A stretch of DNA of 64,000 nucleotides from Runella sp. MFBS21 (GTDB taxonomy: Bacteria > Bacteroidota > Bacteroidia > Cytophagales > Spirosomataceae), in assembly GCF_029433105.1 (NCBI RefSeq), contig NZ_JARNTW010000003.1, positions 248,001 through 312,000 on the forward strand, written 5' to 3'. This document shows positions 7,933 through 51,170 of the stretch, one piece after another (position 1 is the stretch's first letter; every line of letters starts with the position of its first letter). Position numbers and translations under genes: made by a program. The notes beneath the pieces are model-generated. The model saw nothing but the letters and a program-made list of their open reading frames with translations. It had not been told where the DNA came from and made no database searches.

Positions 7933-8520
7933 ATGGGTGAACCAACAAACGAACGTCAACTCTGGCAAGACTTTCAGAATGGAGACGACGACGCCTATAC
8001 GCAGCTCTATAGGCTACACGTCAGAGCTATGTACCGTTATGGGCTTAGTTTAGTGCCTGTATCAGAGGCATTTGTATTAGATTGTATTCATGATGTATTC
8101 ACCGAAATTTGGGCCAAACGTACCCGCCTTTCTGTACCCGACAATGTGCGTTATTATTTATTAAAATCTCTCAAAACCCGCATTCTTCACCTGCTAAAAC
8201 GCCAAGAACGTCCTCATCAATTTGTTTCTCAAGATGATTTCGATGATTTGTGGACTGAACCTGCAAACGATGAATTACAAACTCAAGAAGAGGAAAGTAT
8301 CAACAAACAAGAATTAATCAAAAACCTCATAAGCCAGCTTCCGCCTCGTCAACAAGAAGCCATTCGCCTCCGATTTGTAGAAAATTTGGAATATACCCAA
8401 ATCGCCGAACTGCTGTCCATGAATCGTCAATCTGCCCAAAATCTAGTATTTAGAGCAGTCGAAAAACTTCGTAACTGGCTCCTCCCTTCCTTATTTTATC
8501 TTTTTTCAAGATTTTTTTAA
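7933..8520 (+). CDS. RNA polymerase ECF sigma factor (FecI-like, Bacteroidota sigma-70 family)
   Basis: 195 residues. Region 2 is seen at about residues 25-90 (DCIHDVFTEIWAKR motif) and region 4 at about 135-185 (LPPRQQEAIRLRF, then the HTH with YTQIAELLSMN). It lies directly before a FecR-type anti-sigma, an STN-bearing SusC and a SusD. In this standard arrangement substrate binding at the transporter signals through FecR to release the sigma factor, which then drives the susCD genes. No other domain is present. Confidence 0.9.
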   Translation: MGEPTNERQLWQDFQNGDDDAYTQLYRLHVRAMYRYGLSLVPVSEAFVLDCIHDVFTEIWAKRTRLSVPDNVRYYLLKSLKTRILHLLKRQERPHQFVSQDDFDDLWTEPANDELQTQEEESINKQELIKNLISQLPPRQQEAIRLRFVENLEYTQIAELLSMNRQSAQNLVFRAVEKLRNWLLPSLFYLFSRFF

Positions 8521-8570
8521 AATCTAGTGAGTATATAATACACCCATGTGTCATCTACGGACAAAAATCC

Positions 8571-9698
8571 TTGACACTTGTGACCAACCTATATCAGACG
8601 TATTCTGCAACCGATTTTGTAACCGACGATGCTTTTCTCAAACATCAACTTACACCCGACGAAAACTCTAAGGAGTGGTGGCAAAGTTGGCTTGCTCAAA
8701 ACCCCCATAAGCAAGAAGAATGGCAAAGAGCCGTTCGACTGCTTGAAGCCGTAAAACTAGGCCTCAATGAATATACCCGCACCTATCTGACGCCCGAAGC
8801 CGAGGCAATGCTACTTCAACGCATCAATGCCACCAATCAAGCCCACGATGAAGAGACAATTTCACGCGCTCTTCCTGCCCTGAACCGTAGCTGGGCTTGG
8901 TATGCTGCGGCAGCTTGTGTGATATGCATAGCAGGTTTAGGCTGGTATACATACACCAAAAAACCTTTGCCTCCCTATCAAGCTTATGTCAAAAACCTCA
9001 ATGATTCGAAAATAGAAAAAATAAACCAAAGCGCCCTACCTCTGTTGGTACAGCTACCGGATGGTTCTCAAGTAAAGTTATTCCCTCAGAGCCGTTTGAG
9101 TTATGATAGTCATTTTGGTCAACAAAACCGCAGTGTTTACCTATCGGGAAAAGCTTTTTTTGACGTAACCAAACAGCCCCATAGCCCTTTCTTTGTATAC
9201 GCCAACGAACTAGTCACCAAGGTATTAGGAACTAGTTTTGTGGTTCAAGCTTATCCCAACGACAAGCATGTAGAAGTACAAGTCAAAACGGGCAAAGTAT
9301 CGGTATTTACCCAAAATGACCCTGACAAAAAGCAAAAGTTAAACAATCGTGAATTGGAAGGGATAGTACTGACTCCTAACCAACAAATTATCCTTAATCG
9401 ACAAGAATTAAGGCTTTCGAAGACTTTGGTGGCCGAACCTCAAATTTTATTAGAAAAACTTCAAATACCCACCTTCGAGTTTGAAGAAACTCCTGTAGTG
9501 GAAGTATTCGAGCTTATCGAAAAAGCTTATGGCGTCAACATCGTTTATGATGCCGAGCTTCTCTCATCGTGTACTATCACGGCTTCATTGACCGACGAAT
9601 CTCTCCCCCACAAAATCAAATTGATTTGTCAAGGGATTGGAGCTAGCTACGAAACCATTGATGCCCAAATAGTAGTGTATTCAAAAGGCTGTAAATAA
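8571..9698 (+). CDS. FecR family anti-sigma factor
   Basis: 375 residues from a TTG at 8571; a GTG lies three codons later and no in-frame ATG is nearby, so the start is uncertain by a few residues. The N-terminal ~105 residues are cytoplasmic, one membrane helix spans about 105-126 (WYAAAACVICIAGLGW), and a periplasmic FecR domain follows (LPDGSQVKLFPQSRL, then a DUF4974-like C-terminal domain with EETPVVEVFELIEKAYGVNI). It holds the adjacent sigma factor inactive and receives the signal from the STN domain of the next gene product. Confidence 0.9.
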   Translation: MTLVTNLYQTYSATDFVTDDAFLKHQLTPDENSKEWWQSWLAQNPHKQEEWQRAVRLLEAVKLGLNEYTRTYLTPEAEAMLLQRINATNQAHDEETISRALPALNRSWAWYAAAACVICIAGLGWYTYTKKPLPPYQAYVKNLNDSKIEKINQSALPLLVQLPDGSQVKLFPQSRLSYDSHFGQQNRSVYLSGKAFFDVTKQPHSPFFVYANELVTKVLGTSFVVQAYPNDKHVEVQVKTGKVSVFTQNDPDKKQKLNNRELEGIVLTPNQQIILNRQELRLSKTLVAEPQILLEKLQIPTFEFEETPVVEVFELIEKAYGVNIVYDAELLSSCTITASLTDESLPHKIKLICQGIGASYETIDAQIVVYSKGCK

Positions 9699-9746
9699 TA
9701 TTATTCAATTATATCCAATTTCAACATCTAACCATTACTTTCTCCT

Positions 9747-12700
9747 ATGAGAAAACATCTACGTCTTCGCAGTTTGGCTATTCGTACGGTATGTCTGACC
9801 TGTACTCAGCTGCTGCTTTCTGTACTATTAATTGGTGTCACGTACGCCCACGAAAGCTACGCCCAAGAGTTGTTGCAACAACGCATCACCCTCCGCGCAG
9901 AAGAGCAATCTTTCAAGTCAGTGTTGTCCAAAATCGAAAAACTTACTTCGGTCAAATTTTTGTATAGCCCAAGTCTTATCAAAACAGAACGTAAAGTAAA
10001 CGTCCATGCGGTCAATGAGCCTTTAAGCAAAGTATTAGAATCACTGCTCAAGCCTCTGCAAGTATCGTACGAGGTAGCAGGCAAACAAGTTATTTTAAAA
10101 CAAGAAGCCCAACCAATCCAACCAATCGAAAAAAAGGTTTCGATTGGCAATGATGCCATGCTTATCCAAGATCCTATCAAAGGAACACTCACCGATGCAA
10201 AAGGAGAAGTGTTGGCCGGAGTAAGTGTATTGGTCAAAGGTACAAATCGGGGTACTTCTACCGACGGCGCAGGAAAGTATAGTATCATAGCTAACCCTTC
10301 TGAGACACTCGTATTTTCGTTTGTAGGTTATCTTAAAAAAGAAGTAGCGGTAGGAAATCAGACCGAAATCAACGTTGTGCTCAATGAAGACACTCAAACC
10401 TTGGGCGAAGTAGTAGTCACTGCGCTTGGTATTAAAAGAGACAAACGTGCGCTGGGATACTCTATTCAAGAGATTAATGGCGAGAGCCTAGCCCAAGCCA
10501 AAGAAGCTAACGTAGCTACATCGTTGGCTGGAAAAATCGCTGGAGTACAAGTGACCCGCGCTGGAAATGGAGCTGGTGGGTCTTCGAGAGTAGTGATACG
10601 TGGTGCAAATTCATTGGTCGGCAATAGCCAGCCTTTGTATGTAATCGATGGTATTCCGATGGACAACAGCAACGTAAACTCTCCTAGTCGTTGGGGAGGT
10701 ATTGACTATGGCGACGGAATCTCCAACATTAATCCAGAAGATATCGAAACCATGTCGGTCTTAAAAGGCCCTAATGCTGCCGCACTTTATGGACAAAGAG
10801 GTAGTAACGGAGTGATTTTGATTACCACCAAATCTGGTAAATCTCGCAAAGGGATTGGAGTCAAATATGGTATTGATTATTCGGTAGGAGATGCCCTCGT
10901 ATTGCCAGACTTTCAGGACGAGTACGGACAAGGGCTCGACGGAACTTTTACGCACTTTCGGGGCAACGACGGGAAAATATATACTTGGGCAGCAGCTCAA
11001 GCAGCCAATATCCAAGGCATGCCCAAAATGAGTGGTGGACGCGACCGCTTCACCCGTTCAAGTTGGGGTGCTAAAATGGAAGGGCAGCAATACGAAGACC
11101 AATGGGGTAATATCTTAAGTCTGACTCCTCAGCCCAATACTTTCCAAACGTTTTTCAATAAAGAAAAACAAATGGCCAACAATATTAGCGTTGAAGGGGG
11201 CAACGACAATGTCAACTATCGTTTGTCGTTTGGCAATACCAAAATCGACGGCTACACTCCTGGCAATACCCTTAATCGTAACAATATCAACCTTCGTACC
11301 CTTGCCAAAATTACGCCCAAATTAGACTTGGACGTTAAAGCTAACTATATTGGTCAACGAGGCAACAATCGTCCTACAGTATCGGATGCCGCCGACAACC
11401 CTGCATATTTATGGATAAGCCAGCCCCGCTCCATGCCCATGAGTGTCTTAGAACAATCAGCATGGACAGCCGAAGATATCACAAAACAACTTGGCTACGG
11501 AAGCATTATTTATCCGGGTTTGGAAAAAACATATGCTACCAACTCTTCCACGGCCAACCCTTACTGGACTCGTGACCATACCCGCAACTCTGACGACCGT
11601 CAGAGGCTTATTGGATTGATTAAACTGAGTTATCAATTCAATAACTGGATTCGATTGACGGCCAAAACAGGTACCGACTTTTATACTGACCAGCGTTTTC
11701 GGTATCGTGAAAAAGGAACTTACCAAAGCCAAAACCGCAACGGCGACATCATAGAAGAAGTGACTCGCGTACGAGAAGACAACAGTGACGTGTTGTTGTC
11801 GCTTACACCTCAATTGTCAAAAGATTTCTCGTTATCGCTTAATCTAGGAGCCAATCATCAGAAATTTTCAGCTCGTACTACAGGAAATACTGGTACGGAA
11901 TTTATTGCACCTAATTTATATTCTATCAACAATACCCTGCTCAATTCTTATATTTTCAACCTTTCGGAGTCTTCCATCAACTCCGTATATGGAGCAGGTT
12001 CAGTAGGATTCAGAGACTATTTATTTGTTGATTTCTCTGCTCGAAACGACTGGTCGTCTACACTCTCACCAGCCAACAATTCGTTTTTTTACCCTGCCAT
12101 TAGCAGCAGCTTAGTAGTTACGGATGCCTTCAATTTACAAAATAGTACCCTCAGTTTCTTAAAAGTACGTGCTTCGTGGGCACAAGCGGGAAGCTCAGGA
12201 AGCCCTTATCAATTGACAGGTAACTACTCACTGGACCAAAACCCTCATGGTGGACAGCCATTAGGCTCGTTTACATCGGTAATTCCTGACCCTAATCTAA
12301 AAAATGAGTTGACTACATCCATTGAATTGGGTCTTGAAGCTCGTTTCTTCAAAAACCGCCTTGGTCTTAGTTTTGCTTATTACGATGCTAGCACCAAAAA
12401 CCAAATCCTCAATATTCCATTGCCGCCTTCGAGTACATTTAGTTCACGACGTATCAATGCAGGCGAAATCCGCAATCATGGTATAGAGCTATCGATTACG
12501 GGTACACCTGTGCGCACCGAATCTGGGTTTTCGTGGGATGCGACTTTCAATTTTTCCCGCAACCGAAACAAGGTGGTTGAGTTGGCTGAAGGAGTCTCTA
12601 CTTTCCTTTTGGGCGATGATCGCAACGTACAAGTCATTGCTACCCCTGGCAAGCCTTTCGGAACTATCATCGGCAATGGCTTTCAGTGGCTTCGTGACGA

Positions 12701-13349
12701 CAAAGGCAATCGCCTCATCGACCCTACTACAGGCTTACCGCTCAAAACCAACGCCAAATCTTTATATGAAATTGGAAGCGCTTTGCCCAATTGGATTGGC
12801 GGTTTCAATAATGTGTTGCGCTACAAAGGCTTTGCGCTTTCAGGTTTGATTGACATCAGCCAAGGTGGTAAAATATTTTCACAAAGCCTTCGCGAAGAAC
12901 TGGTATATGGTACAATCAAAAAAACACTACCTGGACGCGACGGAACTTACGTAGCAGAGGGAGTAGTAGCTCAGAAAAATGCCGACGGAACTTGGACAAG
13001 CACTGGTCAAACCAACACCAAACAAGTAAGAGCGCAGGATTATTGGAACGTCATTGCACCAGATAAAGATAACGTAGTCTCTGAAGAAATGCTGAATGAT
13101 GCAAGCTATGTAATGTTTAGAGAACTTACTTTCAATTATCAATTACCTTCTAAGTTTATCAGCAAAACACCTTTCCGCAACATCCGCGCGGGTGTATATG
13201 GTCGTAACTTGTTTTATTTCCAACGCAAAACCGACGGCTATGCACCCGAAGCTTCTTCCTTCAATGTCAACAATTCTTCGTTGGGGCTTGAATCTACTTC
13301 ACTGCCTTTGTTGCGGTATTTTGGTGTAAGCTTGAATTTAGAACTCTAA
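9747..13349 (+). CDS. SusC/RagA TonB-dependent transporter with N-terminal STN signalling domain
   Basis: 1200 residues. Order: signal peptide (hydrophobic to about residue 35, cut after SYAQ), STN domain at about 45-120 (LRAEEQSFKSVLSKIEKL), carboxypeptidase-D-like beta domain at about 140-225 (GEVLAGVSVLVKGTNRGTSTD), TonB plug starting with the EVVVTALG box and containing VVIRGANSL, then a long beta barrel. The STN domain is the trait of transporters that signal to a FecR partner, matching the two preceding genes. Imports an oligosaccharide or peptide-like ligand across the outer membrane with SusD; no glycoside hydrolase is adjacent, so the ligand is unknown. Confidence 0.93.
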   Translation: MRKHLRLRSLAIRTVCLTCTQLLLSVLLIGVTYAHESYAQELLQQRITLRAEEQSFKSVLSKIEKLTSVKFLYSPSLIKTERKVNVHAVNEPLSKVLESLLKPLQVSYEVAGKQVILKQEAQPIQPIEKKVSIGNDAMLIQDPIKGTLTDAKGEVLAGVSVLVKGTNRGTSTDGAGKYSIIANPSETLVFSFVGYLKKEVAVGNQTEINVVLNEDTQTLGEVVVTALGIKRDKRALGYSIQEINGESLAQAKEANVATSLAGKIAGVQVTRAGNGAGGSSRVVIRGANSLVGNSQPLYVIDGIPMDNSNVNSPSRWGGIDYGDGISNINPEDIETMSVLKGPNAAALYGQRGSNGVILITTKSGKSRKGIGVKYGIDYSVGDALVLPDFQDEYGQGLDGTFTHFRGNDGKIYTWAAAQAANIQGMPKMSGGRDRFTRSSWGAKMEGQQYEDQWGNILSLTPQPNTFQTFFNKEKQMANNISVEGGNDNVNYRLSFGNTKIDGYTPGNTLNRNNINLRTLAKITPKLDLDVKANYIGQRGNNRPTVSDAADNPAYLWISQPRSMPMSVLEQSAWTAEDITKQLGYGSIIYPGLEKTYATNSSTANPYWTRDHTRNSDDRQRLIGLIKLSYQFNNWIRLTAKTGTDFYTDQRFRYREKGTYQSQNRNGDIIEEVTRVREDNSDVLLSLTPQLSKDFSLSLNLGANHQKFSARTTGNTGTEFIAPNLYSINNTLLNSYIFNLSESSINSVYGAGSVGFRDYLFVDFSARNDWSSTLSPANNSFFYPAISSSLVVTDAFNLQNSTLSFLKVRASWAQAGSSGSPYQLTGNYSLDQNPHGGQPLGSFTSVIPDPNLKNELTTSIELGLEARFFKNRLGLSFAYYDASTKNQILNIPLPPSSTFSSRRINAGEIRNHGIELSITGTPVRTESGFSWDATFNFSRNRNKVVELAEGVSTFLLGDDRNVQVIATPGKPFGTIIGNGFQWLRDDKGNRLIDPTTGLPLKTNAKSLYEIGSALPNWIGGFNNVLRYKGFALSGLIDISQGGKIFSQSLREELVYGTIKKTLPGRDGTYVAEGVVAQKNADGTWTSTGQTNTKQVRAQDYWNVIAPDKDNVVSEEMLNDASYVMFRELTFNYQLPSKFISKTPFRNIRAGVYGRNLFYFQRKTDGYAPEASSFNVNNSSLGLESTSLPLLRYFGVSLNLEL

Positions 13350-13381
13350 TCAACTCTTTACCTTTTTAAGACATACATTTT

Positions 13382-14884
13382 ATGAAACATATAAAAATCA
13401 AATCGCTCGTGGTGTTGGGAAGCCTCCTTATGGCACAAAGCTGTACCGAAGATTTTGAAAAAATCAATACACCCCCTACTACCCTATCTACCATTGATCC
13501 GGGGCTGATTTTATCAAAAGCCCAAAAAGATGCGGCATTTTCGGAAGGTTACGAATACCCTAACAATCAGTTTGGCTCATGGATACAACATTGGGCAGGG
13601 GGCGTTTTAATATCTAGTTCAAGGTATATTCAACAAACCGACGATAACCTTTGGAATGATCACTACGCACTTATCAGAAATCTATCACAAGTACGGAATC
13701 AAATACTCAAAGGTCGTGAATCTGATCCTAAAGCCCGCACCAAATTGGCCATTGCGCGGATTGTAGAGATTTCGATATGGCAACGTCTCACTGATCTTTT
13801 TGGTGATGTTCCATTTTCCGAAACCGCATTGGGTGTAGAAGCCGTCAACAACCAACCTAAATTTGACACGCAAGAGTCTATTTATAAAAAACTAATTCAA
13901 GATTTAGATGCGGCTATTGGCCAGCTCACTCCTACTGATGAAAGCTACGGCAGCGCTGATTTTTATTTCAAAGGCAATATCGCTCAATGGAAAAAATACG
14001 GCAATTCCCTTAAACTACGTCTTGGGATGCGGATTAGGTATGCGGATGCAGCATTGGCTCAAAAAACCGTAACTGAGGCCATGGGCCAACCGCTGATGGA
14101 AAGTAATGCCGACAATGCTGCCGTTCCTACCTTCAATGATGCCACTAACGGTAATGTACACCCTGTACTCAATCATTGGCTTGCTGGTAGCCCCGACCTC
14201 AAATACCTAGCGTCGGCCTTGGTGACTCAACTTGTTTCGACCAAAGACCCACGGCTCCCACGTTTGGCTCAGCCTAGTGTTAATTCAGTAAAAGCCGGTG
14301 CTCCTGCCTACAAAGGCATTGGTGTAGCCCTTACTGATGATTTGCTAAAGGCTGTTATCAAGGATGATTATTCTACGGCTTCCCAAACTACCTTTTTCAA
14401 CAAAGCTTATAGTCCCGCTATTGCCTGTTTAGCGATGTCTTTTTCAGATGTTAGTTTTTACAAAGCCGAGGCTGCCCTAGAAGGATGGGGTGCTACTACC
14501 GATCAAGCCGAGAAATTTTATCAAGATGGTCTCAAAGCCGCATTGGCTCAAAACCCCTATAATGTCACTACTATCCCAGCAGATTTTCAGGAACAGCTTT
14601 CTTTTACGGGATTGAGCAAAGAACAAAAGCTAGAAAAAATTGGTACGCAAAAGTGGATTCAGTTGTTTGGACGCTCTTACGAGGCCTTTATCGAATGGCG
14701 CCGCATGGGCTATCCCGCGCTCAAACCAGGCCCCAACTTAGGCTCTACCAATGGGCAGATTCCGAGGAGAGCTATTTACTCATCTAGAGAGACATTACTC
14801 AACAAGCCTAATTATGATGAAGCCGTAAAACGCCTCTCAAACGGCAACTCCTACACTTCAAAAGTGTGGTGGGATAAAAAATAA
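13382..14884 (+). CDS. SusD/RagB-like outer-membrane lipoprotein (SusD-like_2 type)
   Basis: 500 residues. A lipoprotein signal ends in AQSC (Cys near residue 21). The mature start (TEDFEKINTPPTT) and the central TPR-like helices are typical of the SusD-like_2 group. It caps the SusC barrel and binds ligand at the cell surface. It starts 32 bp after SusC, so the two are co-transcribed. A strong hairpin ends the operon. Confidence 0.88.
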   Translation: MKHIKIKSLVVLGSLLMAQSCTEDFEKINTPPTTLSTIDPGLILSKAQKDAAFSEGYEYPNNQFGSWIQHWAGGVLISSSRYIQQTDDNLWNDHYALIRNLSQVRNQILKGRESDPKARTKLAIARIVEISIWQRLTDLFGDVPFSETALGVEAVNNQPKFDTQESIYKKLIQDLDAAIGQLTPTDESYGSADFYFKGNIAQWKKYGNSLKLRLGMRIRYADAALAQKTVTEAMGQPLMESNADNAAVPTFNDATNGNVHPVLNHWLAGSPDLKYLASALVTQLVSTKDPRLPRLAQPSVNSVKAGAPAYKGIGVALTDDLLKAVIKDDYSTASQTTFFNKAYSPAIACLAMSFSDVSFYKAEAALEGWGATTDQAEKFYQDGLKAALAQNPYNVTTIPADFQEQLSFTGLSKEQKLEKIGTQKWIQLFGRSYEAFIEWRRMGYPALKPGPNLGSTNGQIPRRAIYSSRETLLNKPNYDEAVKRLSNGNSYTSKVWWDKK

Positions 14885-43020: not shown

Positions 43021-43329
43021 TTTTTTAGTTGTTTTAAATTTATCCATTTATAAGGCTTTTTAAATTTGTTTCGTTTTTTTAAATGGTTTTCGCTCTCCAT
43101 TTGTCATGATTTAAACATTATTGCTTGTTACAAGCAAATTTCTTATTTCACTTTCTAACGTCTTCTTATTTGACTTCACAAAGGTCTTAAATATCCATTT
43201 ACTACGCCATCATAGTTTTTATTATTCGTCTAATAAGTATTATTAGATGTATATCATAAATTTTATTATAAAAATTATGATATATGATTCCCGACCAAAT
43301 CATTACTTTTGGGTTTTGTAACATCCAAA
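43021..43329. other. AT-rich divergent intergenic region
   Basis: No gene was seen. It contains a TACTTTTG -7-like box at 43304-43311, 18 bp before the kinase ATG at 43330, without a clear -33 partner. Confidence 0.4.
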
Positions 43330-45195
43330 ATGAAAAAACACCTTATTGTACTCTTAATCTTCGCTTTAGGAAATAATCTCTATGCCCAAATTACCCTCCA
43401 TTCTTCCTCCCAACGGCAGGTGATTGGTAGCCAAACTTGGTTTTTGAGAGAGTCGACAAAAGAAGGAATGTCACTGAAGGAGATAATAAAGGCCGATAGC
43501 TTAGGGAAATTTGTAAAAAACAATTCTTCTGTTCCCAATTTTGGATTCTCACAGTCAGCTTATTGGGCGAGGTTCGATGTCACCAATTACGACACAACCA
43601 CTCATCCATATCGATGGCTCCTTGAAGTGGGTTTTGGAAACATGGCTTTTGTAGACTTGTACATACTAGATACCAATACACCTATTTTACATACTAAAGC
43701 AGGAGATTATTTAGGAAAAAAGGGCCGACAATTTGATTATTTTGGGTACATTTTTGACCTATCCATTCGCCCAAAAGAGACCAAACGCGTATATATGCGA
43801 TTTCAGCCTTATTCAGGGCAAGCACTTTTTCCACTGGCTATTTGGCAAAACGATGCCTTTTTTAATGCCAATCAAACCGTGAGCTTCATTTGGGGAGGAT
43901 ATATAGGTATATTGCTGGTAGTGCTACTCTACCATTTGGTGTTGGCATTGGTGACCAAAGAGAAAGGTTTCGCCAAGCTCTCCGCTTATCTGCTTACTTA
44001 TTTAGGCTTTGAACTAGCGCGGGGTTTTGGGTTAGGGCCTCGCTACCTTTGGTATGATTCTATCTTTTTTACAACTTATGCTGCTTATATTTTCAGCACC
44101 ATTTCGTTGTTGTTGTTCCTAGATTTTTACAATTATGCTACCCAAGTCTCTGAGACTAACCCCCGTCTTCGTACCATTATTCGTGCCACCCAAGCGTTTT
44201 GTCTATTGTTAGGTTTGACCACCTTTTTTTATAACAGTGCTGGCCAAAATCAACTAATGAGCCTCCAGGCATTGGTAGTTGGCTTAGTCGTACTTACGAC
44301 AGCTATCCGTTCGGTTTGGCAAGGAAACAAAACAGCTTGGTTTTATTTACTAGCGATTGCTTCTATTTATATAGGTACTATGGTGCAAAGTGCCCAACGA
44401 GCTGGGTTTTTTAGGGTGTATGAAAGTTTACTTACTCGTTATGCTATCAATATTGGGTCTTTAATCGAAATTTTGTTGTTATCGCTTGGCGTCGCCTATA
44501 CCGTCCGAGCTGAGCGAGCTAAGCGACAAGCCGTTGAAGAGCAAGCCCAACTCGAACAACAAAATCGACATCAAGCGATTGAAGAAGCAGAACTAAAAGG
44601 GAAAAAAGAAGAAATGCAACGGGTATCAAATGACCTCCATAATCGCCTAGGTAATACTTTGCTGGCTCTGCGCTCCACCCTCAAAACGCTTCAAGGGGAA
44701 TTGCAAGGTAATATAGAACAAAAATGGCTCGTTGAAAGCATGGATTTAGTTCAAGAAACTTACAACCAAATCCGAGAATTGTCGTATGGATACTCGCCCA
44801 AAATTCTTGAAAAAGAAGGACTTTTTGGGGCCTTGACTCAGCTCATCGAACGTTTCAATAGAATCCAGAAACAGACTGTTTTTTATTTGTCTGTTTCTGG
44901 AAGCGAAACATTATTAGGCAATAAACACGCCTTAGAAATTTATCAGCTTTGTCTCGAACTAATCAATAATATCCTCAAGCACTCTGAAGCTTCGGAAGCA
45001 AGTATCCGTATTCGTATTACCGATTATTCGAGTAGTATCATAGCTATCGACAACGGAATAGGACTAAAAGAGCATGTCAGCTCCTCTACATCCTTTCCCA
45101 AAATGTACGACCACATCACTCGTTTAGGAGGGACGTTGGCAGTTCGGACGAGCGAAGAGATTGGCCTCAAAGTTGAAATCACCCTTCCTCATTGA
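43330..45195 (+). CDS. 7TMR-DISM sensor histidine kinase (NarX-like HisKA_3 class)
   Basis: 621 residues from the ATG at 43330, which opens a signal peptide ending LYAQ. Order: periplasmic DISMED2-type beta-sandwich (about 25-175), seven-helix 7TMR-DISM segment (about 185-395), coiled coil rich in Glu/Gln (395-430), HisKA_3 domain with His437 in SNDLHNRLGN, then a HATPase_c domain (INNILKHSE; IDNGIGL). The periplasmic domain probably binds a carbohydrate-like ligand. It faces a LuxR-type response regulator gene and overlaps its end by 7 bp, so the two likely form one two-component system. Confidence 0.88.
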   Translation: MKKHLIVLLIFALGNNLYAQITLHSSSQRQVIGSQTWFLRESTKEGMSLKEIIKADSLGKFVKNNSSVPNFGFSQSAYWARFDVTNYDTTTHPYRWLLEVGFGNMAFVDLYILDTNTPILHTKAGDYLGKKGRQFDYFGYIFDLSIRPKETKRVYMRFQPYSGQALFPLAIWQNDAFFNANQTVSFIWGGYIGILLVVLLYHLVLALVTKEKGFAKLSAYLLTYLGFELARGFGLGPRYLWYDSIFFTTYAAYIFSTISLLLFLDFYNYATQVSETNPRLRTIIRATQAFCLLLGLTTFFYNSAGQNQLMSLQALVVGLVVLTTAIRSVWQGNKTAWFYLLAIASIYIGTMVQSAQRAGFFRVYESLLTRYAINIGSLIEILLLSLGVAYTVRAERAKRQAVEEQAQLEQQNRHQAIEEAELKGKKEEMQRVSNDLHNRLGNTLLALRSTLKTLQGELQGNIEQKWLVESMDLVQETYNQIRELSYGYSPKILEKEGLFGALTQLIERFNRIQKQTVFYLSVSGSETLLGNKHALEIYQLCLELINNILKHSEASEASIRIRITDYSSSIIAIDNGIGLKEHVSSSTSFPKMYDHITRLGGTLAVRTSEEIGLKVEITLPH

Positions 45196-45947
45196 CCAGG
45201 TTTGAGAAGGCCAAATTCATAGCAATAATGAATAAGCCCTATCACTCCATTTACCTCTAGCTTACGTATAGCACTCTGGCGATGCACCGCTACCGTAGGA
45301 GCTGCAATATTCAATTTACTCGCAATTGCTTTGGTTGTCAAATCTTCGGCCAAACAAACCATAACGTCGATTTCTCGCTCAGTCAATAGTTTCAATTTCT
45401 CAGATTTATGGGCCATTTCTTTGTTTTTTGCCAATATAGGCGTGAGCTCAGGACTATAATAAATTTTTCCTTCCAAAACCGCCTGAGATGCTTTCACTAC
45501 TTCAGCTTCGTCATATGGCTTTAATATATAAGCATTCACACCTAAATTGACAACTTCACGGATAATATCGGCAGAATCAAGTCCCGAATAAACCACAATC
45601 AATATTTTGGGGTTGATTTCTTTAGCTTCTCTGATTAAGTCAATACCACTTGTGGCATGTCCAAATTGCAAATCGGTAATCAGCAAGTCAGTAGAAGAAA
45701 GCATTTTAAGTGCCTCATTTACACTCTGTACCCCACCTACCACTTGGAAGGTAGGCTCACTCGTAAACGCCAGTTTAAGAATATTTACAATCGCTGCGTG
45801 ATCATCGACTACTAAAGTTTGAATAGGACGATTGGGGGTAGTAGGATGCAATGAGGAATCACCTCGGGTAATGCCAAAGTTGTGCGCGAGCCCTTCAGGC
45901 GACACCGCACGTTGAGTTTGAACATGTGTTTTCAGTAGAGTTTCCAT
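45189..45947 (-). CDS. NarL/LuxR-type response regulator with N-terminal extension
   Basis: 252 residues. The receiver domain starts only at about residue 42 (TLVVDDHAAIV) with phospho-acceptor Asp92 in LITDLQFG and the Lys in ILKPYD. The C-terminal LuxR HTH is at about 188-245 (LTEREIDVMVCLAEDLTTKAIA; shown in part). The ~40-residue N-terminal extension is unusual for this family. Natural partner of the convergent DISM kinase, whose HisKA_3 class matches NarL regulators. Confidence 0.88.
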   Translation of the reverse strand: METLLKTHVQTQRAVSPEGLAHNFGITRGDSSLHPTTPNRPIQTLVVDDHAAIVNILKLAFTSEPTFQVVGGVQSVNEALKMLSSTDLLITDLQFGHATSGIDLIREAKEINPKILIVVYSGLDSADIIREVVNLGVNAYILKPYDEAEVVKASQAVLEGKIYYSPELTPILAKNKEMAHKSEKLKLLTEREIDVMVCLAEDLTTKAIASKLNIAAPTVAVHRQSAIRKLEVNGVIGLIHYCYEFGLLKPGQ

Positions 45948-46711: not shown

Positions 46712-48157
46712 TCACGGATTGTAACGATAAGAAAGCTCGGTATTCCAAAAAAAGAATACTCGCTTTTGTATCGAAAATAGCAAGTAGGGAGCACCTCTAC
46801 TCTCAGGGAGGGACTTGCATAACTGCCAACTATCTGCCTCACTAAACCGCCAAAGTTGGGTTGAAAAACCTCGGGCCAAAAACCCATATCCTCGACTTGA
46901 GAATCCACTAAAACTACCATTTGCCCCTAGAGGAGTGATTTTTTGCCAAGGAGCAGAAGCTATCTCAGGACGAAAACGCCAACAAGTATTCTGTGTTATA
47001 ATATAAGCGGACTTGCCAATCGAAAATGACACTGAATCAGATATTCGCGTTAGTATCCCTGAATTGGTAAGTGCAAGCGTCGATTCTTGTGCCCATTTGT
47101 TGGTGGTAGGGTCATATGTCCATACACTCCAAGCATCATCTCTGTTTAGTTTTGATATGAGATACCCTTTATTGCCCAACCCCACCGCATATGTATCTGC
47201 CCCTATGAGGGGACAATCGGCTATGGGTTTCCAACTATCTGTTCCATTACCAACAGCAGGGATGTACTCCCAAAATTTACCTATTTGGGTGCTATACAAA
47301 TTACCCGCAAACATTCGAGTACCAACCGTAAACGAAACCAGCGCCAAATTGGTAGAAGTAGTCACCAAACCTGGAAAGGCTGTCCGTTCGGCCCAGTTAT
47401 TAGTCGCTAACGAAGGGTCAAACTCAAACACTTTGTTTCGTCCACTCAACATATCTACGATGCAGTACCCTTTTGTATGGTTATCGAAATAGGTTTTGAC
47501 TCTTATTAGTTCAGAAGCGGAGGGGAGAATTCTAGTTTCTAGCTTTGTCCATTCATCACATGGCTGATTGTAGAGAGTAGTTAGGGCAATACTATCCGAT
47601 TCACTCAACCTAATCTGTTCATATTGGTTAGAGAGCGACATCGCCGATTGCAGGTCTTCACTATCCTTAAAACCCAGTGCTACGCCTATTTGATACACCA
47701 GCACTCTTTGCAAAACAGATGTAGTCCAAGGAAATGATCGACGCAACAAAATAGTACAACCATTATTAGCAGGGTCACGTCGAATTACGCTAAGTGCATC
47801 CAAGTTTTGGGAAATCAGTCCTTTGTCTGATTCAATACTAGGAAAAATGGGAGAATCTGTAAATGTAACCGTGATAGCGGGAACTTGATTGACGACCTCT
47901 TTCAATTCCAAATACCCATGTGTTTTGTTCCACAGGCCAGCAGCATTCCTAAGAGCTGTAAGTTGAGATTGCTGGTCAATATTACTAGTAAAATCTGTCA
48001 TCTTATACAAGATGCTACACGTGCCAAAGCGGCGAATAGAAGTCACGTTATCGTTGACACCAAGGTAAAGAGGTTTCTGGCTACTCTCCATAAAACCCAG
48101 CTCACATCCCACCAATCCCAAACATATCCAAATCAAGAGATAAATACGTAGATTCAT
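46712..48157 (-). CDS. Lipoprotein with inactive matrixin-like domain and kelch-like propeller
   Basis: 481 residues from the ATG at 48157, which gives a lipoprotein signal (LVGC, Cys18) and no overlap with the upstream gene. Residues ~45-200 look like a metzincin: LRNAAGLWNKTHGYLEL, a TVTFTDS strand, and VYQIGVALGFKDS at 154-166 followed by an SAMS Met-turn. Against HExGHxxGxxHS, the three His and the Glu are replaced (Tyr155, Gln156, Val159, Asp165), so no zinc can bind. Residues ~210-480 have repeated strands of the kelch/galactose-oxidase propeller kind (W-x-Y-x-P; GYLISKL; KWAQES). Probably a binding or sensing protein on the outer membrane. Confidence 0.65.
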   Translation of the reverse strand: MNLRIYLLIWICLGLVGCELGFMESSQKPLYLGVNDNVTSIRRFGTCSILYKMTDFTSNIDQQSQLTALRNAAGLWNKTHGYLELKEVVNQVPAITVTFTDSPIFPSIESDKGLISQNLDALSVIRRDPANNGCTILLRRSFPWTTSVLQRVLVYQIGVALGFKDSEDLQSAMSLSNQYEQIRLSESDSIALTTLYNQPCDEWTKLETRILPSASELIRVKTYFDNHTKGYCIVDMLSGRNKVFEFDPSLATNNWAERTAFPGLVTTSTNLALVSFTVGTRMFAGNLYSTQIGKFWEYIPAVGNGTDSWKPIADCPLIGADTYAVGLGNKGYLISKLNRDDAWSVWTYDPTTNKWAQESTLALTNSGILTRISDSVSFSIGKSAYIITQNTCWRFRPEIASAPWQKITPLGANGSFSGFSSRGYGFLARGFSTQLWRFSEADSWQLCKSLPESRGAPYLLFSIQKRVFFFWNTELSYRYNP

Positions 48158-48164
48158 AGTTTTG

Positions 48165-49595
48165 TCAGAAACGAAATGAAACATCTATCCTAAGACCGTG
48201 TTGAACCGCATCAATATCTTGTGGTTTCGATTCTTTAAATCGTAATGGTTGATAACAATAACTCCCCCATATACGATAACGTCCCACCCAATACCCGGCT
48301 CCTACTGCACCACCAACAGAGGGTTTCAAGGTGGGTTGTTGAGGAGAGCTTGTTACGTTAGTTTTATATTTGAAGCCAAAAGGTATCTGCAACGAAGGGC
48401 CTATCCCAAGCTGCATACCAGAAGAGCGATACTCACCTTTTGATTTAAAGTTGCCCACAACATATCGAGGCTGAATTTGTATTTGTTGGATACGAAACTC
48501 CTCAATATCTCGGGTAGTATTATCTATTTTGTCTAATGTCTTAAAATGATTGGTACTCCAAAGTATATCTGTTTCTATACGACCTTTTCTTTCCCATTGC
48601 CCAATGCCTAGACGCACGCCAGCCGTAATTCCTTGAGCTATGGAAGCTGGGATACCAATACCATTTCTCCGAAATTGAGGCATTTGTACTTGCCAGCCAA
48701 CTACCGGCTCTACGTAGATTGCTCTATTGAATTCTTTCCAAAGCACCTGCTCGGTCTCTGTAAAATGTCTTTTTACTGAATCTGATGCCGTCGTAATATA
48801 AAAGGAATAATAATCCACAACCGTTTTTTGTAAATCTTGTCGAACGTTTTTGTTAACAGAAACTGCCTTAAACTTATCATCAGAGAATTGATAAAAGTTT
48901 TTGATTACCTCTTTCACAACTAGCTTTCGTAAAAGAAAACTTGGGTAATCGCCACTTTCATTACTATATTGATTTATCGATACTTTCATTTGAGTTTCTA
49001 TGGCTTTAATTATGTTATTGAAAATCGCATCTGCATTAGGCTTTTTATTCATCCTTTTATAAACCATCCAAACTGCCAAAGCATCCGCTTCGAACTCGTG
49101 GATTTTAAAGCGATTAAGTTGTACTGTTTCGTGTTTACCACTGCTAAATTTCAAAACAATCTTATATCTTTTTATAGATTCACCCAACGCTTTATTGATT
49201 TCTGCATTATTGCCTAGTGTGTATTTCTCATAGGTATGCCCTATCGCATGGTGAGCTATTTCATGACAAATCAAGAACTCTTCACTACCATCTATCTTCC
49301 CTGCTTTAACCTTTGTCATAAACGCAGGTTTATAAAAAATGTACCTTTTCTCATCGCGACACATTTGCGCATAAATCACCCCATGACAAGGGAGAGAATC
49401 AGGATAGATAATAGGGGTATTATCAAATAGACTAGTATATGATTTAATTACGTTTTTAGCATCTTCCAAACTATACTCCTCGCTAAATCTTGATTTAGCA
49501 TTTCTTAGGACTTCGTCACACCCGCAAAGTTGGGCATAGACACACGACAAATTAACTAACAGTCCAACAAGACAAAGCCACAGTATCTTAATCAT
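48165..49595 (-). CDS. Exported M48-like metalloprotease domain fused to a C-terminal outer-membrane barrel
   Basis: 476 residues. Signal peptide to about residue 21 (cut after VYAQ). Residues ~25-230 carry HEIAHH at 111-116 and, 52 residues on, HEFEADALAVWM, i.e. the HExxH and E-x-E-A-D third-ligand pattern of gluzincins of the M48/M56 type; all zinc ligands and the Glu base are intact. From ~300 to the end, short amphipathic strands (GVRLGIGQWER; MQLGIGPSLQIPFGF) lead to a last strand ending in Phe (RIDVSFRF), as in barrels inserted by BamA. Overlaps the anti-sigma gene by 8 bp and precedes the pseudo-matrixin gene by 7 bp. Confidence 0.65.
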   Translation of the reverse strand: MIKILWLCLVGLLVNLSCVYAQLCGCDEVLRNAKSRFSEEYSLEDAKNVIKSYTSLFDNTPIIYPDSLPCHGVIYAQMCRDEKRYIFYKPAFMTKVKAGKIDGSEEFLICHEIAHHAIGHTYEKYTLGNNAEINKALGESIKRYKIVLKFSSGKHETVQLNRFKIHEFEADALAVWMVYKRMNKKPNADAIFNNIIKAIETQMKVSINQYSNESGDYPSFLLRKLVVKEVIKNFYQFSDDKFKAVSVNKNVRQDLQKTVVDYYSFYITTASDSVKRHFTETEQVLWKEFNRAIYVEPVVGWQVQMPQFRRNGIGIPASIAQGITAGVRLGIGQWERKGRIETDILWSTNHFKTLDKIDNTTRDIEEFRIQQIQIQPRYVVGNFKSKGEYRSSGMQLGIGPSLQIPFGFKYKTNVTSSPQQPTLKPSVGGAVGAGYWVGRYRIWGSYCYQPLRFKESKPQDIDAVQHGLRIDVSFRF

Positions 49596-50235
49596 GGTAT
49601 GGTAAAAGTTGAGTAGGTGTAAGTTGTCCTTCTTTGATTTTATACTTCACATTTTTAGAATATAACAGATACGTATTTTTCTCTTCTATGGCCCTTATTT
49701 CCCAGCCGGCAGTTGGTTCCAATGCATATAATTTTAATGTATCTCCTTGCCATTGGTATTCGGGCTTGGAGTTCCCAAAAAGTCCATTTCGCTTATAAAA
49801 AGCGAGCGTCAGAGAATCTTTCTCATAAAAAGATATTCCTTCTTGTTGCACCTTAATCCGAGCTATCGTAGGCTCATTAGGCCACCACAAAGTAGAGACC
49901 ACAATCACCAATACACAAGCGACCCCGCCCAGCACAGTCCATAAGTTGCGCTTCGTTATTTTCTCAAACACGGCCTCAAAAGGTGTATGCTCCTCTTTAC
50001 GTCGCTCATAATGAAGTTCTTCTTCACGATAAGCTTTCCTTTTTTGGTCTAGCTCTGCCTCAATAGCCGCCTCATGCCCCAAAACTGCCAATGAATCCTG
50101 TACTAACATAAATGCTAGCAATTGATCTTTATACAAAGGCTCCGCTTCCAGTCTGCTCTCAATAGTTTTTTTCTCTTCTTCCGAAGAAGTTCCGCTGAGG
50201 TAGCGTTGCCAAGCATTTACATCATTTTCGTTCAT
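49588..50235 (-). CDS. Anti-sigma-factor-like single-pass membrane protein
   Basis: 215 residues. N-terminal cytoplasmic part (about 1-95) starts VNAWQRYLSGTSSEEEKKTIESRL (in part), like the helical anti-sigma domains of Bacteroidota, and is followed by a highly charged helix. One membrane helix at about 96-117 (VLGGVACVLVIVV). The periplasmic remainder (~95 residues) is beta-rich. No zinc-binding HxxxCxxC is present. Its ATG overlaps the stop of the sigma-like gene (4 bp), the standard sign of a coupled sigma/anti-sigma pair. Confidence 0.68.
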   Translation of the reverse strand: MNENDVNAWQRYLSGTSSEEEKKTIESRLEAEPLYKDQLLAFMLVQDSLAVLGHEAAIEAELDQKRKAYREEELHYERRKEEHTPFEAVFEKITKRNLWTVLGGVACVLVIVVSTLWWPNEPTIARIKVQQEGISFYEKDSLTLAFYKRNGLFGNSKPEYQWQGDTLKLYALEPTAGWEIRAIEEKNTYLLYSKNVKYKIKEGQLTPTQLLPYHD

Positions 50236-51170
50236 TTCGCGATTTTATCCCGTAGTCGTTGCTCCAACATTTTTTTAATTTCTATTCCTTGATCATAGTT
50301 GTTTAATATTTCAACCACTGTCGGAATACTCTTTAGCGATAGTGCGGTCAAGCAACGATTTTTTCGTTGCCGTATGGTTGTTTCTTTCTCCTTTCCGTTA
50401 GTCAATTGAACAAGTGTTTTAGGTTTCTCATCCTTACTTGAAACTTGAATAAGCGTCTGAGCATTCGTTTTCAACTCATCGTTTGAGGCATCTTTGAGAG
50501 TGGCTACTTTTTCTTGATCCCAGCCATAATGACTCAGCAATAGCTTTTTGCATCCTTCATCTAAGCCTAAAAAGTCAGCCGCTACTACTTGATTCACCTC
50601 GGCGAGCATTATCAACTGCTCCTCCGTAACCGCAGCAGGCGCATACTCTTTGGGTAAAGTTTTTAAGGGATTGGTCTTTTTTTTCTCTTCTCGATAATGA
50701 GCAAAGCAAAGATTCATACAAATAGCGCCCAGGTAGCTGGGCAAGGAGCTATATAAACTAAAATCATTTTTTGATTTGACCTTTGTCACCAATACTTTTA
50801 AAGCATCTCCCACTGTATCGTCAGCTTCGTCAGGGTTCCATTTTGGATTGATTTTTAATATCAATGACTTGAGTCGTTGCCACAGCCCTTGGTAGTCGTA
50901 AGTGCGCGCCGTTAATCTGATAGATTCATCTTTAAGATGTAAAAGGAAGTAATGATCTTTGTACAAAGACTCAATTTGATATTTTGGATTTGAAGGTGTA
51001 CGCGTTCGAGCCATCCAAACAAAGGAAATCGCTGTACTTTTAGCCAATTCAACTTTCAGGTCTTCTCTAGGAGGATACTCAAATTTTAGACACTCCTCCA
51101 CAACCTGTTTTTTTATTCTTAGTTCTGCCTTATATCCTTTATTGATTGCCAACAAATCGGATTCTTCCAT
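50232..51170 (-). CDS. Atypical ECF-like sigma factor
   Basis: 312 residues, half as long again as a usual ECF sigma. Residues ~110-165 carry a region-2-like block (PDEADDTVGDALKVLV, then YLGAICMNLCFAHYREEKKK). A region-4-like block follows: LDEGCKKLLLSHYGW at ~205-219, then a polar insertion of about 45 residues, then TIRQRKNRCLTALS, the recognition-helix end seen in many Bacteroidota sigma factors. The N-terminal ~90 residues match nothing I know. Translation is coupled to the anti-sigma-like gene. No recognisable target promoter was found in the window. Confidence 0.55.
   Translation of the reverse strand: MEESDLLAINKGYKAELRIKKQVVEECLKFEYPPREDLKVELAKSTAISFVWMARTRTPSNPKYQIESLYKDHYFLLHLKDESIRLTARTYDYQGLWQRLKSLILKINPKWNPDEADDTVGDALKVLVTKVKSKNDFSLYSSLPSYLGAICMNLCFAHYREEKKKTNPLKTLPKEYAPAAVTEEQLIMLAEVNQVVAADFLGLDEGCKKLLLSHYGWDQEKVATLKDASNDELKTNAQTLIQVSSKDEKPKTLVQLTNGKEKETTIRQRKNRCLTALSLKSIPTVVEILNNYDQGIEIKKMLEQRLRDKIAK

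Follow-up and report, generated by a model that had tools for sequence, protein, structure and literature searches.

An ECF-like sigma factor locus with its own predicted outer-membrane M48-type protease and a dead metzincin lipoprotein in Runella and other Spirosomataceae

Releasing sigma factors by proteolysis is one of the basic means by which bacteria sense the state of their envelope; in the textbook case, the protease making the first cut is encoded away from the sigma pair, as is DegS, a serine protease at the inner membrane, which is encoded away from rpoE-rseA. Cell-surface signalling of the FecIRA type combines an outer-membrane barrel, an anti-sigma factor and a sigma factor of the extracytoplasmic function (ECF) class. 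Here, we describe a locus of Runella sp. MFBS21 (Spirosomataceae), located in a stretch of 64,000 nucleotides (contig NZ_JARNTW010000003.1, positions 248,001 to 312,000; hereafter the window), in which four adjoining genes, A to D, encode a divergent ECF-like sigma factor, an anti-sigma-like membrane protein, an exported M48-type metalloprotease with a predicted outer-membrane barrel and a lipoprotein with a dead metzincin domain. This combination recurs in other genomes of the family.

Further described systems resemble parts of this locus. The Dma/Das system of Bacteroides pairs a dual membrane-spanning anti-sigma factor, the single-chain protein Dma, with an ECF21 sigma factor (PMC13088901). 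Csx30, which inhibits an ECF-like sigma factor, is cleaved by the TPR-CHAT protein Csx29 (PMC10028731); this is a precedent for a protease cutting the inhibitor of such a sigma factor. Neighbourhoods of caspase and ECF genes have been described by Aravind and colleagues (PMC8195603). In the window (G000:C23:248001-312000 of a genome, G000, of 7.88 Mb), the locus comprises the following genes:

50232..51170, minus strand: A, divergent ECF-like sigma factor with an N-terminal extension, 312 amino acids (TIGR02937, hhalign, SigW)
49588..50235, minus strand: B, anti-sigma-like protein with one transmembrane (TM) segment, 215 amino acids (hydropathy topology; position after A)
48165..49595, minus strand: C, exported M48-type metalloprotease with a predicted C-terminal outer-membrane barrel, 476 amino acids
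46712..48157, minus strand: D, lipoprotein (LVGC) with a dead matrixin domain and a C-terminal kelch-like propeller, 481 amino acids
45980..46645, minus strand: E, family not recognised, 221 amino acids (present in nine type-1 loci, see below)
45189..45947, minus strand: NarL/LuxR-type response regulator (Response_reg and GerE over cut-off; same place in the nine type-1 loci)
43309..45195, plus strand: 7TMR-DISM histidine kinase, convergent with the response regulator (PF07695, PF07696 and HATPase_c over cut-off; same place in the nine type-1 loci)

An earlier note on this DNA, made from the letters alone, had described A to D as a four-gene unit. Recomputed ends of the open reading frames (ORFs) bear out its coordinates and junctions, with overlaps of 4 bp between A and B and of 8 bp between B and C and a gap of 7 bp between C and D (the start of D was set at 48157; a longer mechanical ORF begins at 48184). 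A-B-C-D lie on the minus strand, with the recF gene (by TIGR00611) upstream of them. The composition A-B-C-D was also described correctly and recurs at other C loci, but the note had overlooked that E, the response regulator and the kinase travel with these genes, that the same genome holds a second copy, and that there are related loci with CHAT, C14, C1 and S8 peptidases.

In all, 222 genomes of the family were searched with a profile of C, with up to 7 candidates scored per genome, and locus genes were called by our own ORF script (longest ORF first; starts not curated). Full-length C was found at 23 loci in 22 of the 222 genomes, always with at least 179 bits; other matches of the profile in the order reach 68 bits at most. 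The co-occurrence which the earlier note had proposed to look for, and whose absence would have refuted it, is indeed present. B adjoins C at all 23 loci, A adjoins B at 22 of them (the exception is G010), and a D-family gene lies within the locus at 23 of 23, the copy of G006 being cut by the contig end. A chance neighbourhood is rejected, as the arrangement recurs at 23 C loci, and the counts speak for an association beyond chance. In the first set of 99 relatives, all ten genomes with C also had the matrixin part of D, as did two of the 89 without C (Fisher test 3.8e-12, run with 88 instead of 87 negatives). Samples of the order and of the phylum were searched with 3 candidates scored per genome. 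Twelve of 390 genomes of the order contained full-length C, all of them from the same family, and among 395 genomes taken phylum-wide it was found in G000 and G012 only. A search of genome contigs for related loci yielded two relatives only. For the close pair G008 and G000:C12, the ratio of nonsynonymous to synonymous substitutions (dN/dS) is 0.08-0.30 for all seven genes, with 0.08 for D.

The profile evidence for A is as follows. As a single sequence, A matches TIGR02937 weakly (E 9.5e-5; 22.1 bits, where the cut-off is at 42.9), all its single-sequence matches stay under the curated cut-offs, and it is missing from the 65 Sigma70_r2 (PF04542) matches of its own genome at E 0.01, for which reason the term "atypical" used in the earlier note is correct. 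Comparison of profiles supports the assignment: an alignment of 13 A proteins matched one of six ECF proteins from sister loci with hhalign 97.9% (E 5.6e-13), six type-1 A proteins matched the same alignment with 96.9% (E 1.8e-10), and the matches span 140-154 columns with regions 2 and 4 in order. Control comparisons with alignments of B and E gave 0.1% and 0.4%. A profile of six type-1 A proteins furthermore matches the structure of SigW in the PDB (5wuq, E 0.0029). By these profiles A is a divergent ECF-like sigma factor; a non-sigma protein is rejected on this comparison with its negative controls. The A gene of G887 consists of two short overlapping ORFs (L274:10561-11705) and may be broken.

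B exhibits a single hydrophobic segment, which begins near residue 98 and is preceded by about 97 residues and followed by 99 (hydropathy). Pfam scans gave no FecR match for B, and a weak zf-HC2 match appeared in just two of 14 B-family members. Position after A and topology are what marks B as a candidate anti-sigma factor; with its second half put in these terms, the sigma/anti-sigma pairing proposed for the locus holds up.

C starts with an apparent signal peptide and contains the active-site motif HEIAH at residue 111 and ExxAD at 167-171. HExxH is kept in all 23 C proteins, and both motifs are present in 16 of 16 checked. The C-family profile matches the M48 structure 3c37 (E 4.3e-4); of three C proteins scanned, one passed the Pfam M48 cut-off (L076, 2.7e-5), that of the window stayed below it (E 0.063) and that of L071 had no M48 match. 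By motif and profile, C is an M48-type metalloprotease, and the intact site claimed before is confirmed at this level. Over the last 190 residues, a barrel-like strand alternation exceeds that of shuffled sequences (p<0.05) in ten of 16 members; in a control stretch (residues 60-250) this was the case in none of the 16. Ten of the 16 members end in F or W. Family searches found no barrel family matching C, so that its barrel stays a prediction, by which C would be located in the outer membrane.

The barrel part of C was also seen in other proteins. Two 785-residue exported-looking proteins (L115:6712-9069 and L116:10291-12648) carry it, with HExxH not seen, and in G011 a 609-residue dead-matrixin/kelch protein is encoded about 4.5 kb from such a 785-residue protein.

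D has the lipobox LVGC and matches the matrixin family PF00413 just over the cut-off (E 2.7e-5, 24.5 against 24), which was passed by four of five relatives scanned, with L079 below. The profile of the D family matches the whole catalytic domain of MMP-1 (E 3.9e-13) and karilysin (about 1e-11). The position of HExxH reads YQIGV in D, and the motif is lost in 26 of 26 family members (19/19 and 7/7 in two sets), which makes D a pseudo-peptidase by sequence; an active protease is ruled out at the same level, as the zinc site is gone. The lipoprotein with a dead metzincin domain is thereby borne out, as far as motifs and profiles tell. What suggests the propeller proposed along with it is a similarity to kelch proteins, together with a weak match to Kelch_3 (0.14).

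For E, no useful match was found in Pfam, PDB or PADLOC: in the PDB one match reached E 0.3 and no other surpassed it, and the 22 members of the family gave no Pfam match better than 0.037. A GNAT/FeeM-type synthase, an idea prompted by visual inspection and by L249, where a similar position is taken by a FeeM match, found no support (hhalign 0.3% and 0.1%).

The C loci fall into two layouts. Type 1 (n = 9; window, G000:C12, G012, G008, G367, G273, G851, G800 and G905) has the order A-B-C-D-E-response regulator with the convergent 7TMR-DISM kinase; in G851 the D-family gene lies upstream of A and not after C. In seven loci measured, D is located at -7 to 18 bp from C and E starts 47-121 bp after D, hence A to D form the tight core. 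Flanks were compared by eye. The recF flank is common to the window and G012, another one is shared by G000:C12 and G008, and the other five differ. These differing flanks, together with the two type-1 copies in the Runella genome (window and G000:C12), are the reason why the unit seems to have been moved or duplicated whole.

In type 2 (n = 14), a CHAT gene and a D-family gene are found near A-B-C, and 12 of the 14 loci contain an extra ECF/anti-sigma pair. Ten of these loci (G398, G875, G857, G872, G908, G874, G887, G030, G055 and G006) show the order D-CHAT-ECF-anti-sigma-A-B-C on one strand. In G034 and G013 the genes are the same and their order is rearranged, the locus of G017 is without the ECF/anti-sigma pair, and that of G010 is without ECF, anti-sigma and A. 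CHAT was confirmed by Pfam in one type-2 locus (L071, 3.1e-53) and assigned by BLAST or our own profile in the rest.

Some neighbours of type-2 loci may be mentioned. VWA-type lipoproteins are encoded near C in three of them (L072:702-1682, L073:14238-15245 and L074:3895-4905), confirmed by Pfam in L074 and alike by eye in L072 and L073. Near type-2 loci, proteins of L074, L075, L112, L270 and L272 have N termini that look PorP/SprF-like, the likeness being weakest in L270. Some of these genes accompany a large secreted-looking protein, which might hint at a tie to type IX secretion.

Sigma and anti-sigma-like genes are followed by other peptidases in sister loci. In E-family loci they precede a caspase-type C14 protein (L149; L150 is similar, with its sigma gene unconfirmed), in L146 and L147 a papain-type C1 protein, and the gene between anti-sigma and CHAT was an S8 subtilase in six of six tested cases. 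Pfam was applied to C1 in two loci, to S8 in six and to C14 in L149, L150 and L249. The last of these (G017:C26, 4674-11741) holds a kinase, a response regulator, a FeeM-like protein (PF21926, 1.5e-9), a 337-residue sigma factor, an anti-sigma-like protein and C14, and resembles the type-1 layout with other parts. Among 30 CHAT matches listed from the family, 20 regions were counted (five more lie in loci already covered and were not counted, and the remaining five are not part of the count). An ECF gene was present in 18 of the 20, about 9% being expected by chance, a figure derived from 65 Pfam sigma genes in the 7.88 Mb of one genome, which is not the same basis as the ECF profile used for the count, built from sister-locus ECF proteins. 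In ten of the 18, CHAT is on the same strand.

Further occurrences of these families were noted in passing. G000:C21:4367-48028 of the Runella genome contains thirteen C14 caspase-type matches in about 44 kb, and G061, a member of the order, has 46 CHAT matches in one genome. Elsewhere in the window (7933-14884), an ECF sigma gene (own profile, 4.7e-13) stands with genes for proteins of 375, 1200 and 500 amino acids, which by eye looks like an ordinary SusCD locus with sigma/anti-sigma.

How might the proteins work together? We tentatively favour, with a confidence not far below even, a sigma/anti-sigma switch with a dedicated envelope protease, in which C, helped by D, would cut the ectodomain of B. 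B would hold the sigma factor A at the inner membrane, and the barrel would anchor C in the outer membrane, its M48 domain lying in the periplasm and D being its partner or sensor. Upon a surface or envelope signal, B would be cut in its ectodomain by C and degraded further by general proteases, both intramembrane and cytoplasmic ones, as for RseA, and the released A would drive its genes; kinase, response regulator and E would provide a second, regulatory input. The composition, linkage and conservation of the genes, the intact site of C and the lost one of D are established from the sequences. In this scheme we infer the localisation of the proteins, the anti-sigma role of B, its cleavage, the direction of the signal and the roles of D and E. 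The earlier note had proposed that D binds a target which C then cuts, with A giving the output. As candidate substrate we favour instead the ectodomain of B, on the indirect ground that M48-barrel genes and CHAT, C14 and C1 genes are accompanied by dissimilar ectodomains. Among 47 anti-sigma-like ectodomains compared, from proteins picked by position, the 31 encoded next to CHAT, C14 or C1 fall into one similarity cluster with a single exception, which is on its own. The 16 encoded next to M48-barrel genes form five clusters (6, 5, 2, 2 and 1) with no link to the other 31. Separate clusters would be expected if peptidase and ectodomain need to match. This separation could be compatible with such matching and also with shared descent. 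Further points in favour of the switch are the tight linkage of the genes, the low dN/dS of all seven, the active-site motif kept in C and lost in the D family, the sister loci with other peptidases beside sigma pairs, the frequent ECF genes in CHAT regions and the precedent of Csx29.

Several points weigh against the proposed switch. The separation of the ectodomains could reflect shared descent and not substrate matching, and loci with CHAT, C14 and C1 all use one ectodomain type. From the outer membrane, the protease would need to bridge the periplasm to get at an ectodomain of about 100 residues, and the strand-alternation excess is missing in six of the 16 C members, which leaves the barrel part of the earlier claim a statistical prediction. 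CHAT is on the opposite strand in eight of the 18 ECF-holding regions. In G010, B, C and D are present and A was not found upon ORF reading of the locus. A simple scan of eight loci showed no promoter motif common to the upstream regions of A or the kinase. Finally, A as sigma factor, B as inhibitor, the location of C and the cleavage of B are all predicted from sequence.

The peptidase might instead be the output: A and B would form an autoregulated switch of the envelope or surface, with C and D as its main regulated products, a protease at the surface or in the periplasm and its lipoprotein partner, acting on envelope proteins, prey or competitors. ECF operons often encode their own targets, C and D stand at the end of the tight core, the varied peptidases beside sigma pairs would suit interchangeable effectors, and the G010 locus, without A found, fits as well. 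Many ECF factors autoregulate, according to the accessible part of PMC10028731. However, if the peptidase were no more than a product, the ectodomains of M48-barrel loci would have no need to be separate from those of other loci, and we consider this explanation possible but somewhat doubtful. That C is a quality-control protease of the BepA kind, with barrel and D folding or removing outer-membrane proteins and A/B as a local envelope-stress regulator, would agree with its M48-like nature, which it has in common with BepA, and with generic M48-like proteins being the next best matches of its profile. Yet these matches are separated from the C family by a clear gap (at most 68 against at least 179 bits), and the patchy occurrence in 22 of 222 genomes is odd for a housekeeping function, which renders this idea unlikely. 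Very unlikely, in our view, is a module for defence or conflict, where the sigma pair would be the trigger that sets an envelope protease free to act on the cell itself or on others. The patchy distribution, the differing surroundings, the caspase and CHAT sister loci and the caspase/ECF neighbourhoods in the accessible part of PMC8195603 would suit it, but a PADLOC search of A to E gave no useful match (the only one, of A to PbeC, was weak with 0.0014), and a known defence family for A to E is rejected on this ground.

The switch with C as protease of B may be extended to one signalling class in Spirosomataceae, in which sigma pairs would each have their own exported peptidase cutting a matching ectodomain, with the unrelated peptidase types M48-barrel, CHAT, C14, C1 and S8 having taken each other's place and the dead metzincin lipoprotein as surface sensor; we regard this generalisation as rather doubtful. 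The gene set and its sister sets would provide a family of ready-made experiments on the matching of peptidases and anti-sigma factors, and a possible function for the CHAT and caspase-like proteins which these bacteria export.

In the open-licence literature, no description of an M48-barrel protease or a dead matrixin lipoprotein beside a sigma pair was recognised, and the accessible parts of PMC13088901, PMC10028731 and PMC8195603 do not mention the same composition. The gene set, in which the sigma pair comes together with a predicted outer-membrane protease and a pseudo-protease lipoprotein and which has sister sets with four other peptidase types, suggests an undescribed route from surface events to gene expression. 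With RseA/DegS/RseP (sigma-E; mentioned in PMC10028731) it has in common a one-TM anti-sigma protein, an envelope protease and a proposed stepwise cleavage, but here the M48-barrel protease is encoded inside the operon. Like FecIRA, it would combine barrel, anti-sigma and ECF sigma factor; however, its seven genes include no TonB-dependent receptor, B has no FecR match and the predicted barrel is on the protease. The N-terminal domain of D matches the whole catalytic domain of M10 peptidases such as matrix metalloproteases and karilysin, unlike which the D family lacks HExxH. Csx29/Csx30/CASP-sigma (type III-E), as far as described in the accessible text, likewise places the gene of a protease next to those of an ECF-like sigma factor and the inhibitor of this factor, and type-2 loci also carry TPR-CHAT. 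Csx29 is, however, activated by RNA and works with Cas7-11 (PMC10028731), whereas C and the CHAT proteins seem, by eye and hydropathy, to begin with signal peptides, and for them a function in the envelope is predicted. Dma/Das is likewise a sigma/anti-sigma pair of Bacteroidota tied to an outer-membrane barrel, with anti-sigma domain, TM segment, tether and barrel in one chain and no protease domain named in the accessible text (PMC13088901). This one-chain architecture is not the one encountered here, where B (215 amino acids) ends 99 residues after its TM segment. B and C are separate proteins, the barrel is predicted on the M48 protease, and the locus further contains E, a two-component pair and the lipoprotein with its dead matrixin domain.

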